The notes under the pieces are model-generated. The model was not told where the DNA came from. It saw only the letters and a program-made list of their open reading frames with translations, and did no database searches. A DNA stretch of 64,000 nucleotides from Nitrosomonas sp. Lineage in GTDB: Bacteria; Pseudomonadota; Gammaproteobacteria; Burkholderiales; Nitrosomonadaceae. This document shows, piece after piece, positions 13,889 through 21,786 of this stretch. Position numbers and translations under genes: made by a program. The stretch's first letter is position 1. Each line of letters opens with the position of its first letter. The stretch is taken from NCBI GenBank assembly GCA_020852475.1, contig JADZAR010000184.1, forward strand, positions 1 to 64,000, read 5' to 3'.

Positions 13889-14541
13889 GCGAGTAGTCCT
13901 TTTAAAAAGCTATGTGACAGGAATGTGAACGCTGGTTAATTCAGTGGATAAATAAGTTTTACTGATCGAAGTCATAATATTCCTCGTGGTTGCCAAAAAT
14001 AAAATAGCCCGCATTATAGTCTGCATGATTCTGAAATCAAGCATTTTCTGCAAAAAACAATTTCCATTTTAATCTGCACGTCAGTCAAAAAAACACAGCA
14101 GGATTATCGCGATTCTGTTTCTGATTTTATTCAATTCCTTATCAATAGCATGTCATAGCGGCGTTGTGTGAGGTTTAACACATACAGCCAGGTCAACGAC
14201 GATTAAGATCGTCACCATACCTGAAAGTTTTTCAATAAAGCAAAAAACGTTCGCTACGTTGCAACTCGTATTCGAAATAATCATTTCACTCAAAGATTTC
14301 TGTTTTCTGCAAATTTTAAGTGAATTTATGTCATGTAATTATCTTAAGTAAAACTATAAAGCCACCGTATACATTTCGGCTTGTGTCGGTTGTGCGTATA
14401 TGCAAGTAAGTACTTTTATAGCAGCCGTTCTGCATGATCTTTTTTGCAGGTGGTTGTTTATAAAAATGAATCATGGCTGTGTTCCTGTCATGATTTTTGA
14501 CGATGCTTTCCGGAGGGAAAGTTTTTAGAGTGGAGGAAAAA

Positions 14542-16413
14542 GTGAAAAGACGCGAATTTTTAAAACTGGGAGTGGCGGGCACGCTCGGTGCTGCAGCCAC
14601 TTCCGCTCATAGCAGAGCAAATTTTCCGCAAAGCGGACTGGTGTTTCCGGATGGGTTTACACCCAGCCACGTTGGCAGACCCAGTCCGCCGGCGACACCT
14701 TTTAAGGATCCATTGTTTCGCATGCCGGTTGCGAAACCCGTGCCTGAAGCGTTGTTAAATCGCCCGTTGCCGCCCGATCCAATGGCGCATCAGCGTTACA
14801 ATGAATTGCTACCGCAGAAATACTATATTGAAAAAATAAAGCAGTTCAAGTGGCGATACCATTCCGATGGCCCTTATAAAAACGGATCGTGGTCCTGGGG
14901 GTTTACCAACGGTATTGGCGGAAAAGCGACAACACCCGGACCGACTTACCATGCAAAATACGGAGAGCCGATCTTGGTGCGTCGCTTCAACGAATTGCCG
15001 CCGGTTGGTGCGGGCTATGTGCCGTTTGCGCTGCCGTCCGTCAGTATTCACTTGCATAACGCGCATACGGCTTCGGAAAGCGATGGTATTCCGACCAATT
15101 TCTTTAATCCTGGGGAATTCTGGGATTACCATTATGGTAACTTCCCCGCCGGTTTTGATTATGCGCATGAGATCATGAGTACGTTGTGGTACCACGATCA
15201 CCGGCTTGATTTTACCGCACCTAATGTTTACGCGGGTTTGAGCGGATTCTATTTATTGTTCGATGAACTGGACTCGAACAATGAGCAGGATAAGAATCCG
15301 CAAGCGTTCCGGTTGCCCAGCGGAGACTATGATATTCCGCTGATTCTGCATGATGTTCAATTCGATGAAAACGGTCAGGCGGTATTTGATTTCTTTACCA
15401 ACCGGGCGCCGGAGCCGACACTCGGCACGTTTCCGCAGGGCACCGACCCCATAGATAATCCGGGTCATCAATCCGAGTCGCCCTTACATCGTATCTATAA
15501 GGGTTCACCCAATTTCACGGTATTTGGCATGCTGGGTGACAAAATTACAGTCAACCGGACTATACAACCATATCTCAAAGTTGAGCCGCGCAAATATCGT
15601 TTCCGCATTCTCAATGGCGGACCGTCGAGACTTTACCGCTTATCGCTCAGAGCAGAAGGACGCAACGGCGACAGTCATCCGGGGTGTAAGTTTTATGTGC
15701 TGAGTAATGACGGCAACATGCTGGAATTTCCACTGGAAAAACGATCATTTGATTTATGGGTTGCTAACCGGGTGGATGTGGTTGTCGATTTTTCAGCCTT
15801 CAGACCGGGCGATAAGGTGTACCTGGTTAATCGTCTGGAAATGCGGGAAGATGGCGCGGGGCCAAGTGGCCGTGAGCTGGATGAAGGCGATCTGGTGATG
15901 CGTTTTGATGTTCAACATGGCAGTCGTCATGCCAGCGATCCCAGCCGTATTCCTGATTTCATGCGGCCATTGCCACCGATCAATCTGGCCGAGGCGCGTG
16001 TAAAACGCACCTGGGTATTTGATTACGATAACGGTCTGTGGACAGTCAACGGACGTCTGTTTAATCCCAATCGCATTGACGCAAAAATCGAAAGCGGTTC
16101 CGCTGAAATCTGGACCATTCGTAATGGCGGTACTTCCTGGGCACATCCGGTGCATACACACTTTGAAGAATTCAGAATACTTGAGGTGAATGGAAAACCG
16201 GTGAAACCGGGAGATTTTCTCAATTCAAGAAAGGATATTGTTGAGTTGGGGCCCAATACCGAGGTCACGTTCTTCGGCCGCTGGCGCGATTTCCAGGGCA
16301 TTCATGTCATGCATTGCCACAATGTCGTGCATGAGGATCATGAGATGATGATTCAATGGCAAATGGTGCCGCCCGGCATGGGCGACGGGGAGGAAATCGA
16401 TCATGAAACCTGA
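14542..16413 (+). CDS. Tat-exported multicopper oxidase (laccase/CotA-like)
   Basis: GTG start preceded by GGAGG; Tat signal KRREFLKLGVAGTLGAAA; copper ligands SIHLHNAH, LWYHDH, WAHPVHTHFEEF, IHVMHCHNVVHEDHEMM. Confidence 0.92.
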   Translation: MKRREFLKLGVAGTLGAAATSAHSRANFPQSGLVFPDGFTPSHVGRPSPPATPFKDPLFRMPVAKPVPEALLNRPLPPDPMAHQRYNELLPQKYYIEKIKQFKWRYHSDGPYKNGSWSWGFTNGIGGKATTPGPTYHAKYGEPILVRRFNELPPVGAGYVPFALPSVSIHLHNAHTASESDGIPTNFFNPGEFWDYHYGNFPAGFDYAHEIMSTLWYHDHRLDFTAPNVYAGLSGFYLLFDELDSNNEQDKNPQAFRLPSGDYDIPLILHDVQFDENGQAVFDFFTNRAPEPTLGTFPQGTDPIDNPGHQSESPLHRIYKGSPNFTVFGMLGDKITVNRTIQPYLKVEPRKYRFRILNGGPSRLYRLSLRAEGRNGDSHPGCKFYVLSNDGNMLEFPLEKRSFDLWVANRVDVVVDFSAFRPGDKVYLVNRLEMREDGAGPSGRELDEGDLVMRFDVQHGSRHASDPSRIPDFMRPLPPINLAEARVKRTWVFDYDNGLWTVNGRLFNPNRIDAKIESGSAEIWTIRNGGTSWAHPVHTHFEEFRILEVNGKPVKPGDFLNSRKDIVELGPNTEVTFFGRWRDFQGIHVMHCHNVVHEDHEMMIQWQMVPPGMGDGEEIDHET

Positions 16414-17176
16414 AAGTGAAGCGTTAGACGCTGCTGGCGTTGAGGGAAAATCAACCCGTTCAGCTACGCCCGAGTCTCAGCGGCGCAGATTGTTGTCCGC
16501 ATTGCCTGCGCTCGTTGCTACTTCGATACCGGCGCTGGCGCTCGGTCTGCATGATGCGGATGAACTGCACAGCCGTACACGGAAAATCACGGATAGTGTG
16601 GTGCATGGTGGTTTCCCGGGTGTCATGGTGACGGCACATACCGGGGAGCAATTCAATTTCTATCAGGATTTGCTGAAAGACAGATTGGTACTGATGAATT
16701 TCATGTCGGTTGACTCGGAAAATGAGCTGCCAATGACTGCAAATATGGCAAGCCTGATCAAGGGATTGGGAGAACAGTTTGGTCGTGAAGTCTTTGCTTT
16801 TTCGATCAGCTACGACCACGCCAATGACACGCCTGCGCGGCTGGCAGAATTCGCCCGCCGTTTCGATGCGCCTGAAGGGTGGTATTTTCTTAGCGCCAAA
16901 CCAGAAGATATTGTTGCGCTGGGTTACCGTTTGTACCGCACTGCAGGCCGTCCTCGTCAACGCATGAATGCGGATCTGATTCATTATGGCAATGTAAAAA
17001 TCGGTTTGTGGGGTGCGATACCCGCACATATCACCGATGTCGAACTGGCCGTCAGCAGGGTTACATCAGTATTTCCTGGAAAACCGCCGAGCTCCGAAAT
17101 GCGCCGGGCAGGTCCACGCCGCTTGAATGGGGATGGACCTGTATACGACAGCCGGGATCATTGCAGAGTGACCTGA
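16403..17176 (+). CDS. SCO1/SenC-like protein lacking the CxxxC copper motif, Tat-like signal
   Basis: SQRRRLLSALPALVATSIPALAL signal; LVLMNFMSVDSENELPMTANMASLI aligns with SCO site; FAFSISYDHANDTPARLAEFARRF typical of SCO. Confidence 0.82.
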   Translation: MKPESEALDAAGVEGKSTRSATPESQRRRLLSALPALVATSIPALALGLHDADELHSRTRKITDSVVHGGFPGVMVTAHTGEQFNFYQDLLKDRLVLMNFMSVDSENELPMTANMASLIKGLGEQFGREVFAFSISYDHANDTPARLAEFARRFDAPEGWYFLSAKPEDIVALGYRLYRTAGRPRQRMNADLIHYGNVKIGLWGAIPAHITDVELAVSRVTSVFPGKPPSSEMRRAGPRRLNGDGPVYDSRDHCRVT

Positions 17177-17232
17177 ATGGATTGAGCTAGCAGAGTTTTC
17201 CAAGCGAATCAATTATTGAAGAGGTAAGAATC

Positions 17233-19257
17233 ATGAAAAAGAAACACGTTTCACTATTATCGGTCGGGTTGTGTGTTGCGCTGGCAAACATACCGGTCAT
17301 GCTGGCATCCGCAGCGGATGATCCGTACGGTGTGCTACCGGAGCCACCATCCGCGGATGCTTGTCCGAGTTTGCCCGTCATGCCGGGCTGGCCAACGCCG
17401 AATCCACTGGAGTTCAAGGATGATAATCTGACTGTGGTCGTCAATACCGGAAACAGTTTGCATCCGCCATCCGATGTGCGAGATCCCCTACCGTCCAATT
17501 TATGTCCGACGGTGTATGAAGAAGTACGTTCGCGCAGGATTGATGGATCAGAGGGGCCGCCAATTCCTAATTCCCTGTCTTCCACTCCTGAAAATCCATA
17601 TAACCTGCATCCTGATCCGGTTGTGGAAGCCGGCATTAATCCATTGTCACCGACGGATGATCTGCGGACAGTAATCGCAACACTGCGTAAAGCGTTGAAT
17701 GATGGCGCGTCGCCGCTGGAAGCCGTCCAGTTCGGGCTCGATATACTGGAAGGCAATCCGCTGGATCGTGAATATTCAGGTATGCCGTTGCTGCATTACA
17801 ATGGGCCGGAGAAAGTCGTTCATGTAGAACCCGAGTTCAATGATCCCAATGACCCAACCCGGGTAACAGGTGGAAACGCGGTTGTTCATCAGGTCTACTT
17901 TGATCAGAGAATCATGTCCGATGCCTCTTTGATTGTACCTTCTGCGGTGCTCGATGTGCCGTGGACGATCACTTACAAAATCTCCGTACTCAATCGCGGC
18001 CGGGAAGATTTTGCGCCATTTGGTATGTTCTTTAACGGACCGGTCATGGGGCCGGATGGCGTGATTATTCCGGACATTGAGAAGAAACCGGGGTTCGCAA
18101 TTGACCAGACTTTTTTTCCGGTAGAAGAAGGAACGCGTACGACGTTTAAAATTGCGATGCCGCCTGCGCGTCAGTATAAGCTGACGTATCACTGGGGGTG
18201 GCGCAAGCATCCACCCCGAATTCAGGCGCTCGAAAATGGTCTGGCCAAGGAGCTGGGCGTTAGTCTGATTGACTGGGAACGCTGCGTATTCGGTTCCAGC
18301 CCGATGGCAAATGAGGCCAATAAGCTTTACGCCATCGCCATGATCGGTGATCTTGCCCCCGCCAAACGCATGTGGAATATGATGCGACAGCTTAAATTTA
18401 ACCCGTCCGCGTTTAATGCGGGAATCGTTGACCAGATAGAGCTTGCCTTCTTTGACTGGCAGGATAGAACCAAATTACCGTCCGGTGTTGCACGTGACGA
18501 TAATTTTGACATCACGTTGTTCTATGCCAACAACACGTTATATGGTGATGCTAAAGGATATGTCGATCAATCGCAGCGTGTGTTGCAGAATTTCAATAAG
18601 CGCGGTGATACAACCCGTATCAAGGTCATGAACGGTGACTATTTTGAACGTGCGCATATGATCGTGGATTTCGGTGGATTGCGCGGCTGGGAAAACACTT
18701 TCCAGAATACGATTCCTGAATTCGGTGCGGGTCCCTGGTTTACATTTGGACGCGCGTATTGGTGGCCAACACTTCAAGCGCCAAACGGCGGCCCTCAACC
18801 GATTGCCGCTGCGATACCACCATCAGGCATGGCGCCGCGAACCATTGAGCAATGCCAGACGGAATTCGGCGCTAATCTGGTGGCAACCAGCAATCAAACA
18901 CCCGTTGACGCCAATGACCTCAACGCTTCCACGACGTCAGCTGTCAGTGATTCCGGATACGGTTTAAGTATGACGCCGGATGCCGTGCAACAGGCTATCG
19001 CGCAAAAATTACAGCACAAGAGAGCGCAATTGCGGGCAAGGCAGGCTGGTGACGGCGAAGTGCTGACTTCGGTCAGCGAGGAAAGTGCTGAAGAGTTGCA
19101 TCCGGTGCCGACACGCGAAACCATGGAGGCTGCGGGCGCTAACGGTTTGGGATTGCGTCACTTTGAAATTCACTGGAATCACGAACCCAGCAAACGTCTG
19201 CGCATTTATCAATTTGACCAGCTGCATCACGATGTCGCGATCTGGTCGATTCACTGA
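17233..19257 (+). CDS. large secreted protein of unknown family
   Basis: 674 aa, signal MKKKHVSLLSVGLCVALANIPVMLASAADD; RBS GAAGAGG; His-rich C-terminus HFEIHWNHEPSKRLRIYQFDQLHHDVAIWSIH. Confidence 0.85.
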   Translation: MKKKHVSLLSVGLCVALANIPVMLASAADDPYGVLPEPPSADACPSLPVMPGWPTPNPLEFKDDNLTVVVNTGNSLHPPSDVRDPLPSNLCPTVYEEVRSRRIDGSEGPPIPNSLSSTPENPYNLHPDPVVEAGINPLSPTDDLRTVIATLRKALNDGASPLEAVQFGLDILEGNPLDREYSGMPLLHYNGPEKVVHVEPEFNDPNDPTRVTGGNAVVHQVYFDQRIMSDASLIVPSAVLDVPWTITYKISVLNRGREDFAPFGMFFNGPVMGPDGVIIPDIEKKPGFAIDQTFFPVEEGTRTTFKIAMPPARQYKLTYHWGWRKHPPRIQALENGLAKELGVSLIDWERCVFGSSPMANEANKLYAIAMIGDLAPAKRMWNMMRQLKFNPSAFNAGIVDQIELAFFDWQDRTKLPSGVARDDNFDITLFYANNTLYGDAKGYVDQSQRVLQNFNKRGDTTRIKVMNGDYFERAHMIVDFGGLRGWENTFQNTIPEFGAGPWFTFGRAYWWPTLQAPNGGPQPIAAAIPPSGMAPRTIEQCQTEFGANLVATSNQTPVDANDLNASTTSAVSDSGYGLSMTPDAVQQAIAQKLQHKRAQLRARQAGDGEVLTSVSEESAEELHPVPTRETMEAAGANGLGLRHFEIHWNHEPSKRLRIYQFDQLHHDVAIWSIH

Positions 19258-19286
19258 CAAATGACAGGTCAATGATGATCTGTTGA

Positions 19287-19337
19287 CTTGCTTGGTTTCA
19301 GGATGTCCGGCAAGCCGGACATCCTGAAATGCAAGCA
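19287..19337. promoter_or_regulatory. long intra-cluster hairpin
   Basis: TTTCAGGATGTCCGGC-AA-GCCGGACATCCTGAAA (19296-19329), with TGCTTG/CAAGCA flanks. Confidence 0.75.
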
Positions 19338-19378
19338 TTGCGGCAAGATCAGAGATTATTTTTTGAAAGGTATTAACC

Positions 19379-19999
19379 ATGATCGGAAAAAGTCTCATTA
19401 TTTCAGGATTAATGCTGGTTTTGGCGCTGGATTTCGTTTGTTTCCAAGCGGACGGACATGCCGGCCAGCTTGAATATGCCCGTTCGGAGCGGGATTACCG
19501 CACGCCAGCGGTACAGTTGATCGATGTACAGGGGAAGAAAATTGATTTTGCAGAAGCAATCTCGCAGGAAGATGCGGTAATTATCAGTTTTGCCTTCACC
19601 AGTTGCACGGGAACCTGTCCTGTGATTACCGCCAATCTTGTACAAGCTTTGCCGGAATTGCAGAAAGCGGGCGGACGTTACCGGATTTTTCTTGTCTCGC
19701 TCGATCCGGAACATGATACGCCCGCACGGTTGCGGGAGTACCGGGAGCGTTTTAATACGGGCGACGATATTACGTTGCTGACCGGCAGCCGCAATGCCAT
19801 ACATGATTTGCTGCGTGCCTATAACGCGGTTTATCCGGGAGGCAACAAAATGAACCATCAGCCATTGACATTAATACGCGCCGGACAGCATCCATGGATC
19901 AGACTGGAAGGCCTGGTCAGTGGAAGAAGCCTTGCACGGGAGGTACGTCAAGCAGTTGAGCAGTCCGGCATGGTTTCTCCGCTATCCACGGTTTATTGA
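19379..19999 (+). CDS. SCO family copper chaperone with intact CxxxC
   Basis: ISFAFTSCTGTCPVITANLVQAL, FLVSLDPEHDTPARLREYRERF, KMNHQPLTLI. Confidence 0.9.
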   Translation: MIGKSLIISGLMLVLALDFVCFQADGHAGQLEYARSERDYRTPAVQLIDVQGKKIDFAEAISQEDAVIISFAFTSCTGTCPVITANLVQALPELQKAGGRYRIFLVSLDPEHDTPARLREYRERFNTGDDITLLTGSRNAIHDLLRAYNAVYPGGNKMNHQPLTLIRAGQHPWIRLEGLVSGRSLAREVRQAVEQSGMVSPLSTVY

Positions 20000-20061
20000 G
20001 CGCTGTTATCCCGCAATGAAATGAAAACCGAATCGCAAAAATGAATGATCTGGAGATCACT

Positions 20062-21786
20062 ATGGAAAGAATTTCCGTGTTTATTGTGAAAAAAATGTTT
20101 ATAGGGCTGCTTCTCGGTCTGTTGTCGATTTTAAGTCTGCCGGTACAGGCATTTCCTGAAGGTGATGCGGAAAAAGGCAAGCGATTGTATGAACAGGGTG
20201 TCAGTCATAACGGCCAGCCGGTAAAGGCGTTGGCTCAGGATGGAATTATTTTTCAGGGTGAAGATGCAAGCTGTTTGCGGTGTCATCGCCGCAGCGGTTT
20301 TGGCGGGAGCGAAGGGGGATTTTATGTTCCGCCCGTTTCGGCCAACTTCGTTTATGAACCAAGCCGGAAAGACCGTAACGACCGTTTTCGCGCGGCGTTT
20401 CTTGAAGCCCAGAATATCCAGCACTGGGTGCGTGTGAGAATGCCGCGGATGCGCCCGGCTTATACCCCTTCAACACTGGCGGTTGCGCTTCGGGAAGGAC
20501 ATAATCCCTCAGGCACTGAATTCGATCAATTGATGCCGCGCTATCAGCTTGACGATCAGGATGCCGCAAATCTGTCCGCCTATCTGGCAATACTGTCGAA
20601 GACAATTTCTCCGGGCGTGGATGATCATTATCTGCATGTCGCAACGGTTGTCGGGCCGAACGTGAACCCCGTCGAACGGGACGCCATGCTTGAAACAATG
20701 CAGGCTTACGCGCGTTGGTATAACGAGCGGTTGTACAGCGATATTGCCCACGAATCTTCCGCACGCGCCTATGGCATGGATGTGCGGAATTCCACACGTT
20801 TGTGGAAACTGCATATCTGGGAGCTGGTTGGTCCACCGGAAACATGGCGTGCGCAACTCGAACATTTTCAGCATCAGCAACCGGTTTTTGCGATGGTGAA
20901 CGGATTGGTGAATAATGCATGGTCGCCGATAGCCACATTCTGTGATGACATGCGCATGCCCTGTCTGCTGCCGCTGACCGAATTGCCGCCGGATCGGCGG
21001 GAGGATCAAGGCGGCTATAGTTTTTACTACACACGCGGTTTGCAGCTCGAAGCCGATATTCTGAGCATTTATCTGGAGAATATGCCGGATCGCCTGGAAA
21101 ATTTAGTGCAATTGCATGATGCCAGCCGTTTCGGCGCGGAGCCGGCGTTACGTCTGGCCGGTCAACTGTCCGCTCGCCTGCCGGATTTAGCGATTCAGAC
21201 AATCCCGTATGAGAATCCACGGGCGTTGGAAGCTATTTTGAAGAATCTGCGCGGTAAAGTTGGAAAAGACCAGGGTATTGTTGTATGGAGTCATCCTGAC
21301 GATGATTCGATACTGGAAATATTGCAACGTTCTGGCGTACAGGAACAGCCGGTGTTTATTCCGGCGCATATGTTGAGAAAACAGATGGCGCATGGGCGGA
21401 GCGAGTTTTCCAGCCCGTTGCCGGATAATCTGTATATCACCTGGCCGTTTTCGTTACCGCAAACCTATCAGGCTGATGCATTCAGAGTGCGTGGCTGGAT
21501 GCGGTCAAGAGGTCTGCCGGTTAAGGATGAAAGAATCCAGATGCTCAGTTATTACGGCATGAACATTCTGCGTGACAGCACGCGTCATTTGTTTGAGCAT
21601 TTTTACCGGGATTATCTGGTGGAACGTATCGAGCACGAAGTCGAAGGCAGTCCCCATCCCGGAATTTATCCGGCGTTTTCTCTGGGGCCGGAGCAGCGGG
21701 TCATGTCCAAAGGTGGGTATATACTGAAACCAGACGAGGCTCGGAAAAGCACACTGAGCGTTGTGGCGGACTGGATTGTGCCTTAG
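20062..21786 (+). CDS. cytochrome c / periplasmic substrate-binding-protein-like fusion
   Basis: Signal peptide; one heme motif CLRCH; candidate axial Met in FDQLMPRYQLDDQDAANLSAYLAILS; C-terminal ~370 aa resembles type 1 periplasmic-binding fold (ATVVGPNVNPVERDAMLETMQAYARWYNE..., FAMVNGLVNNAW, GYSFYYTRGLQLEADIL). Confidence 0.85.
   Translation: MERISVFIVKKMFIGLLLGLLSILSLPVQAFPEGDAEKGKRLYEQGVSHNGQPVKALAQDGIIFQGEDASCLRCHRRSGFGGSEGGFYVPPVSANFVYEPSRKDRNDRFRAAFLEAQNIQHWVRVRMPRMRPAYTPSTLAVALREGHNPSGTEFDQLMPRYQLDDQDAANLSAYLAILSKTISPGVDDHYLHVATVVGPNVNPVERDAMLETMQAYARWYNERLYSDIAHESSARAYGMDVRNSTRLWKLHIWELVGPPETWRAQLEHFQHQQPVFAMVNGLVNNAWSPIATFCDDMRMPCLLPLTELPPDRREDQGGYSFYYTRGLQLEADILSIYLENMPDRLENLVQLHDASRFGAEPALRLAGQLSARLPDLAIQTIPYENPRALEAILKNLRGKVGKDQGIVVWSHPDDDSILEILQRSGVQEQPVFIPAHMLRKQMAHGRSEFSSPLPDNLYITWPFSLPQTYQADAFRVRGWMRSRGLPVKDERIQMLSYYGMNILRDSTRHLFEHFYRDYLVERIEHEVEGSPHPGIYPAFSLGPEQRVMSKGGYILKPDEARKSTLSVVADWIVP

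Follow-up and report, generated by a model that had tools for sequence, protein, structure and literature searches.

What does an ammonia oxidizer do with an exported multicopper oxidase that is encoded together with two SCO-type proteins, a cytochrome c and a large protein that matches no entry of Pfam, NCBIfam or PDB? The question is raised by a 64,000-nucleotide stretch of Nitrosomonas sp. DNA (contig JADZAR010000184.1, positions 1 to 64,000; the window), where five consecutive genes between positions 14,542 and 21,786 combine these parts. The comparison of this locus with other genomes suggests that the cluster would encode an extracytoplasmic multicopper oxidase complex of two proteins, of the iodide oxidase (IOX) type. 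For this reading we give a probability of about 0.6, a figure that covers the two-protein complex and not its substrate.

The gene cluster and its multicopper oxidase

All five open reading frames (ORFs) are located on the + strand. They are listed here with the product of the iodide oxidase cluster, IoxA to IoxE, whose position each one takes; Tat denotes twin-arginine translocation.

14542..16413, + strand: MCO, three-domain multicopper oxidase of 623 amino acids (70.7 kDa precursor) with the Tat motif RREFL; IoxA-like position
16403..17176, + strand: SCOa, SCO-fold protein, by homology, without the copper-binding CxxxC, with the Tat-type motif RRRLL; IoxB-like position
17233..19257, + strand: U674, exported protein of 674 amino acids (74.4 kDa) with predicted cupredoxin-type beta domains; IoxC-like position
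19379..19999, + strand: SCOb, SCO1/SenC copper chaperone with CTGTC and His intact; IoxD-like position
20041..21786, + strand: cytPBP, fusion of a mono-haem cytochrome c and a type-1 periplasmic-binding-protein domain; possibly the IoxE position

A preliminary description of this DNA had proposed a five-gene same-strand cluster, and the arrangement is real: the ORFs are confirmed, MCO and SCOa share 11 nt, and the later gaps are short (56, 121 and 41 nt). From this spacing and from the conservation of the genes, the five would be co-transcribed. Besides the twin-arginine motifs of MCO and SCOa, the N-termini of U674, SCOb and cytPBP are hydrophobic, as judged by inspection and not with a signal-peptide predictor.

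The MCO gene starts with GTG at 14542, with GGAGGAAA ahead of it, and an in-frame TTG is found upstream at 14497. Its product matches PF07731 (3.4e-15), and among solved structures it is closest to bilirubin oxidase and CotA (profile E-value ~1e-73). The motifs HLH, HDH, HPVHTH and HCHNVVHEDHEM are found in the window protein; moreover, the His and Cys copper ligands, along with the axial Met602, are invariant across 19 loci.

A core of three genes that stay together

The order MCO-SCOa-U674 is kept in 20 of the 20 loci with enough contig, which belong to Nitrosomonas, the order of Methyloglobulus, other Gammaproteobacteria and a metagenome-assembled genome (MAG) of Acidobacteria. This recurring gene order is beyond chance. 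The preliminary description had seen in the cluster a dedicated extracytoplasmic oxidation module, and had named separate occurrence of the genes across genomes as the finding that would speak against it; that comparison was run, the genes held together in every one of these loci, and the module is supported.

The core is sparsely distributed. Of 127 Nitrosomonadaceae, 8 have U674; among sampled members of the class it is found in 5 of 387, and the order of Methyloglobulus has it in 11 of 161 genomes, a number that includes fragments and decayed copies. The Acidobacteria MAG carries it as well. The closest named relatives of the window cluster are those of Nitrosomonas sp. Nm51 and a Nitrosomonas MAG. 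The pairwise distances of MCO, SCOa and U674 correlate with each other (r 0.86-0.93), and the three trees agree, each separating two versions of the cluster, types A and B, with Nitrosomonas in both halves. Therefore, the three genes would have been inherited or transferred jointly, against the species relationships. Their joint occurrence in all 20 loci, the agreeing trees and the correlated distances are what the parts of a single complex would show.

Type A, to which the window belongs, consists of this core followed by an intact SCOb and cytPBP, and it is also found in Nm51, Methyloglobulus, G971, G959, G993, G844 and G289. In type B the core is followed by CusB and CusA, after which most loci encode a DsbA-like protein, another small protein and a cytochrome c. 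CusB is preceded by a glutamine cyclotransferase gene in G210 and G453. A glutamine cyclotransferase gene (PF05096) comes after U674 in three loci (L126:10443-11327, L037:11229-12224 and L038:7806-8759). In another locus, L014 (G056:C63), a second MCO gene begins after U674. As G056 also holds U674 twice, a tandem duplication of the type-B core in that genome is suggested.

Comparison with iodide oxidase

The iodide oxidase of Iodidimonas sp. Q-1 and Roseovarius sp. A-2 is composed of IoxA, an MCO of 62 kDa, and IoxC, of 71 kDa, which co-purifies with IoxA and together with it forms the active enzyme (PMC9415286). In the corresponding cluster, ioxABCDEF, ioxA encodes the MCO, ioxB, ioxD and ioxF encode SCO proteins, and ioxC and ioxE have unassigned functions; relatives of IoxA are reported among Gammaproteobacteria (PMC9415286). 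The kinds of genes, their order and their single direction match those of the window from A to D, a match by kind, order and size and not by sequence, and the order MCO-SCOa-U674-SCOb is seen in all the type-A loci named above. U674 (74.4 kDa) is close to IoxC (~71 kDa), being compared by size and position only, and complete U674 orthologues range from 59 to 80 kDa. Moreover, an enzyme made of the ioxA and ioxC products fits the finding that MCO and U674 are never apart in complete loci. The likeness of the first SCO to IoxB is by position alone, SCOa being copper-dead, and the fifth gene, cytPBP in the window, could be IoxE. No secretion (gsp) genes are seen beside the window cluster, unlike ioxABCDEF.

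The preliminary description had stated that no described pathway combines these parts. This was incomplete, since ioxABCDEF has the same kinds of genes in the same order from A to D, and the mnxG operon of Pseudomonas putida GB-1, considered below, has SCO genes and a binding protein with a cytochrome domain. Also, iodide was missing from its list of substrates (Mn(II), Cu(I), phenolic and nitrogen-oxide compounds). Nm51, which carries a complete type-A cluster, reportedly oxidizes iodide to iodate.

U674, a candidate non-catalytic partner

U674 has no sequence match in Pfam, NCBIfam or PDB, even with family members or the family profile as the query. A first structural model built with 14 sequences had a predicted local distance difference test (pLDDT) score of 51.7 and gave no significant Foldseek result. 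The Methyloglobulus orthologue, modeled with 22 sequences, reached a pLDDT of 80.8 and a predicted TM-score (pTM) of 0.84. All 50 matches listed by Foldseek for this second model against the PDB are cupredoxin-fold proteins, including laccases, CueO, Fet3p and NirK, with coagulation factor V at rank 48; among them, 28 have an E-value of 0.001 or less, the best being 2.2e-5. In a viral structure library, the sole match below 0.001 is annotated as 'Copper oxidase'. The model thus supports the presence of cupredoxin-type domains in U674. A direct sequence similarity between U674 and the MCOs was also sought with hhalign and none was found, so that the similarity is claimed at the level of the fold only.

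Among the 18 full-length sequences, six His residues are invariant (126, 188, 326, 665, 666 and the last residue, 674) and no Cys is. The lack of an invariant Cys makes a usual type-1 copper site unlikely, and the His residues could plausibly form a metal site. A plasmid search with U674 and two relatives gave zero matches, and the 618-residue product of the third gene on a Skermanella plasmid was dismissed as a relative of U674 after testing. U674 would represent a protein family that neither Pfam nor NCBIfam includes; its fold would be of the copper-oxidase type but without the MCO copper motifs, and it was in no case seen separated from one MCO and one copper-dead SCO. This makes the cluster a clean case for studying the roles that a non-catalytic cupredoxin partner and an SCO without a copper site have in oxidase assembly.

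Two different SCO proteins and the cytochrome fusion

The two SCO-type proteins differ in their copper site. SCOa scores 19.1 bits against PF02630, below the cut-off of 22.8, and by homology it would have the SCO-type thioredoxin fold; all 19 orthologues lack CxxxC and conservation is also missing at the His position, the single Cys of the window protein being residue 254, near the C-terminus. On the other hand, SCOb reaches 71.4 bits with the same profile and keeps CxxxC (CTGTC) and His in 8 of 8 orthologues. The label of Cys-less SCO given to SCOa in the preliminary description is therefore correct as regards CxxxC, but its proposal of an SCO pair metallating the MCO is not supported, since SCOb alone is intact. 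Pairs of an MCO and a Tat-exported SCO also occur without U674: other Nitrosomonas have them in tandem arrays, they are found on a Skermanella plasmid too, and their SCO retains CxxxC; the loss of the copper site in SCOa thus accompanies the presence of U674. For example, tandem MCO arrays are found in L151, L152 and L153 (G064:C13, G084:C8 and G079:C92), most of them followed by an SCO-type gene with CxxxC, which in L153 is fused to a cytochrome c domain.

The naming of the fifth product as a fusion of a cytochrome c and a periplasmic-binding protein also proved right. Its CxxCH lies at residues 78-82 and Met165 is invariant; 15 of the 25 members of the family match PF13458 (Peripla_BP_6), the best at 1.7e-33, although the domain is not detected in the window protein alone. 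A PDB profile search gave a match to the Leu/Ile/Val-binding protein 4n0q (1.5e-6). In 23 of the 27 cytPBP loci examined, this gene and that of a CxxxC-bearing SCO overlap or lie within 150 nt, and such pairs include ones adjoining other MCO or cupredoxin clusters. The pair of a CxxxC-bearing SCO and cytPBP is, then, a separate module, and it corresponds to the SCO genes and the gene for a 'substrate-binding protein, cytochrome c domain' in the mnxG operon of P. putida (PMC11409713). Relatives of cytPBP in L068, L069 and L070 (the Cupriavidus metallidurans CH34 megaplasmid, Paraburkholderia and Ralstonia) adjoin a protein of 2700 residues with Ig/cadherin-like and beta-helix matches, as profiled in L068; MCO domains occur nearby in L068 and L070, and Paraburkholderia has secretion genes of the GspG/F/E type there.

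A model for the complex and its substrate

Based on these comparisons, a sequence of events can be proposed for the IOX-type complex. First, MCO and SCOa would be exported already folded through Tat, as their motifs suggest, and SCOa, with its SCO-type copper binding lost, may act as an assembly or scaffold protein for MCO. U674, probably exported by Sec, would be the non-catalytic partner subunit equivalent to IoxC, its cupredoxin fold having a His site in place of the MCO copper centers. Then, SCOb, whose ligands are intact, would load the copper. In MCO enzymes, type-1 copper takes electrons singly and O2 is reduced to water, and the same would occur here. In the last and weakest step, cytPBP may dock to the complex and pass or accept electrons.

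Several observations weigh against this reading. A Cu(I) pump beside type B and a bufferin-type operon beside type A, the latter in two loci, favor a copper theme, and the freshwater methanotrophs that carry the cluster have no obvious need for iodide oxidation. Also, no third SCO gene comes directly after the fifth gene, where ioxF would stand; the next gene is the penicillin-acylase-like one on the other strand. Finally, the TM-scores of the Foldseek matches of U674 are low (0.11-0.16 of the query), so that the cupredoxin claim for U674 applies at the domain level and not to a whole MCO architecture.

As for what the type-A enzyme of Nitrosomonas oxidizes, iodide would be the leading candidate at odds short of even, Cu(I) is a tentative second, Mn(II) or Fe(II) is unlikely, and any other substrate less likely again. 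It is conceivable, if doubtful, that type A is the iodide oxidase of marine ammonia-oxidizing bacteria, composed of MCO and a partner that has a copper-oxidase fold but not the MCO copper motifs, and that type B is a sister system for the oxidation and export of Cu(I). If so, type A would supply the enzyme missing between nitrification and iodide oxidation in the sea. The IOX reading, if it holds, points to the genes on which iodide oxidation by nitrifiers can be examined, a step of the marine iodine cycle that is still open.

Copper detoxification as an alternative

In a possible but tentative alternative, MCO would be a periplasmic cuprous oxidase and U674 its His-rich copper-binding partner; type B would couple them to Cu(I) export through CusBA, and type A would have exchanged the pump for SCOb and cytPBP. 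In view of the description of the iox cluster, a pure copper-detoxification module is placed below the IOX reading. The type-B pump speaks for a copper role: CusA scores 1190-1242 bits against TIGR00914 (cut-off 701), and Met573, Met623 and Met672, together with other residues of the Cu(I) path of Escherichia coli CusA, are present in 7 of 7 loci, whereas H/V/E stand in place of this Met set in the Czc-type pumps found in the same genus. Moreover, type-B loci show HMBD or poly-His tails in CusB and His-rich inserts in U674. Beside type A, a bufferin-type operon with MNIO, DUF2063 and DoxX genes (PF05114, PF09836 and PF07681) is found in Methyloglobulus and G959 (L019 and L131). The precursor in L019 bears a signal and EGKCG repeats, as described for bufferins (PMC12452194), and the small precursor genes have zero Pfam matches.

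Also in line with a copper role, the type-B cluster of G076 and the type-A cluster of the window share their flanks, thyA-folA-odc on one side and penicillin acylase on the other, and types A and B therefore occupy one chromosomal site in different Nitrosomonas. This exchange makes the choice between iodide and copper directly testable in two Nitrosomonas. At the same penicillin acylase-odc site of G010 (L136:8679-9300) there are only C-terminal cytPBP remnants, and the type-A cluster has been lost there.

However, the MCO does not reach the NCBIfam cut-offs of CueO (123.2 vs 525 bits) or CopA (21.5 vs 478.95 bits), and it has no Met-rich segment, no stretch of 45 residues having more than 5 Met. 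A pump is missing from type A, which includes a cytochrome that a Cu(I) oxidase would not need. Like the cluster, the E. coli CueO/CusCBA system has an exported MCO, and type B shares with it CusB as well as a CusA having the methionine path for Cu(I), but the E. coli system has no counterpart to U674 or to the Cys-less SCO, and CusC and CusF were not identified here. The adjacency of copper genes may reflect the copper supply of a four-copper enzyme. Production of IOX is raised by Cu2+ (PMC5928188), and copper-related neighbors are thus compatible with an iodide oxidase.

Metal oxidation and monooxygenase maturation

It is improbable, although several clusters resemble that of the window, that the genes form a Mn(II)- or Fe(II)-oxidizing module like those of Mnx and Mof, with cytPBP as the electron carrier. 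The mnxG operon of P. putida GB-1 contains two SCO genes and one for a 'substrate-binding protein, cytochrome c domain' (PMC11409713), and in the OmpB cluster a MofC-type cytochrome adjoins an SCO (PMC5566968). An MCO with SCO genes and a cytochrome c-bearing substrate-binding protein is the feature shared with the mnxG and mof/ompB-type clusters. These clusters are set apart, by their literature description and not by sequence, by beta-propeller and SurA genes, by a different MCO and, where visible, by the lack of U674, whereas the window MCO is a three-domain enzyme of the CotA/bilirubin oxidase type. In Sideroxydans lithotrophicus ES-1, the cupredoxin/SCO/cytochrome cluster Slit_1812-1818, where an SCO adjoins a predicted cytochrome near MCO and cupredoxin genes, rises on magnetite, and clusters of this type are reported in Paraburkholderia and Ralstonia (PMC12016527). 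Both genera also yielded cytPBP relatives here, adjoining, as in Cupriavidus, a giant gene, which in Cupriavidus and Ralstonia is adhesin-like and accompanied by an MCO gene. Nonetheless, Slit_1812-1818 has a giant adhesin-like cupredoxin protein in place of U674, and U674 with the Cys-less SCO is also present without cytPBP, in type B.

A copper delivery or maturation system for ammonia monooxygenase (AMO) or particulate methane monooxygenase (pMMO) is very unlikely and was rejected, even though most carriers found oxidize ammonia or methane and SCO proteins are copper chaperones: with just 8 of 127 Nitrosomonadaceae carrying the cluster it is not needed for AMO, and no AMO or pMMO match was obtained in four carriers, namely G289, G210, G453 and the Acidobacteria MAG. 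Outside the window, the assembly G000 has no match to the AMO family PF02461, only the last 26 residues of AmoB being present at a contig edge (C91:2-79); near-identical amo operons were probably lost in assembly, despite a stated completeness of 99.5%.

Surroundings of the cluster

One further feature was delimited ahead of the cluster:

13889..14541, strand not assigned: non-coding region upstream of MCO, presumed promoter region

Scans for promoters and terminators gave chance numbers only, with no sigma-70 sites above chance in this region (13889-14541). Its odc-side end (window ~13897-14047) aligns with Nm51, G076 and the emptied site of G010. After cytPBP, a penicillin-acylase-like gene follows on the opposite strand. 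In the order of Methyloglobulus, a response-regulator-like gene lies upstream of type A (L019:6027-6701, L128:13379-14086, L129:4842-5522 and L131:4342-5025), with none near the window cluster; in L019 and L131 it is of the LuxR type by Pfam.

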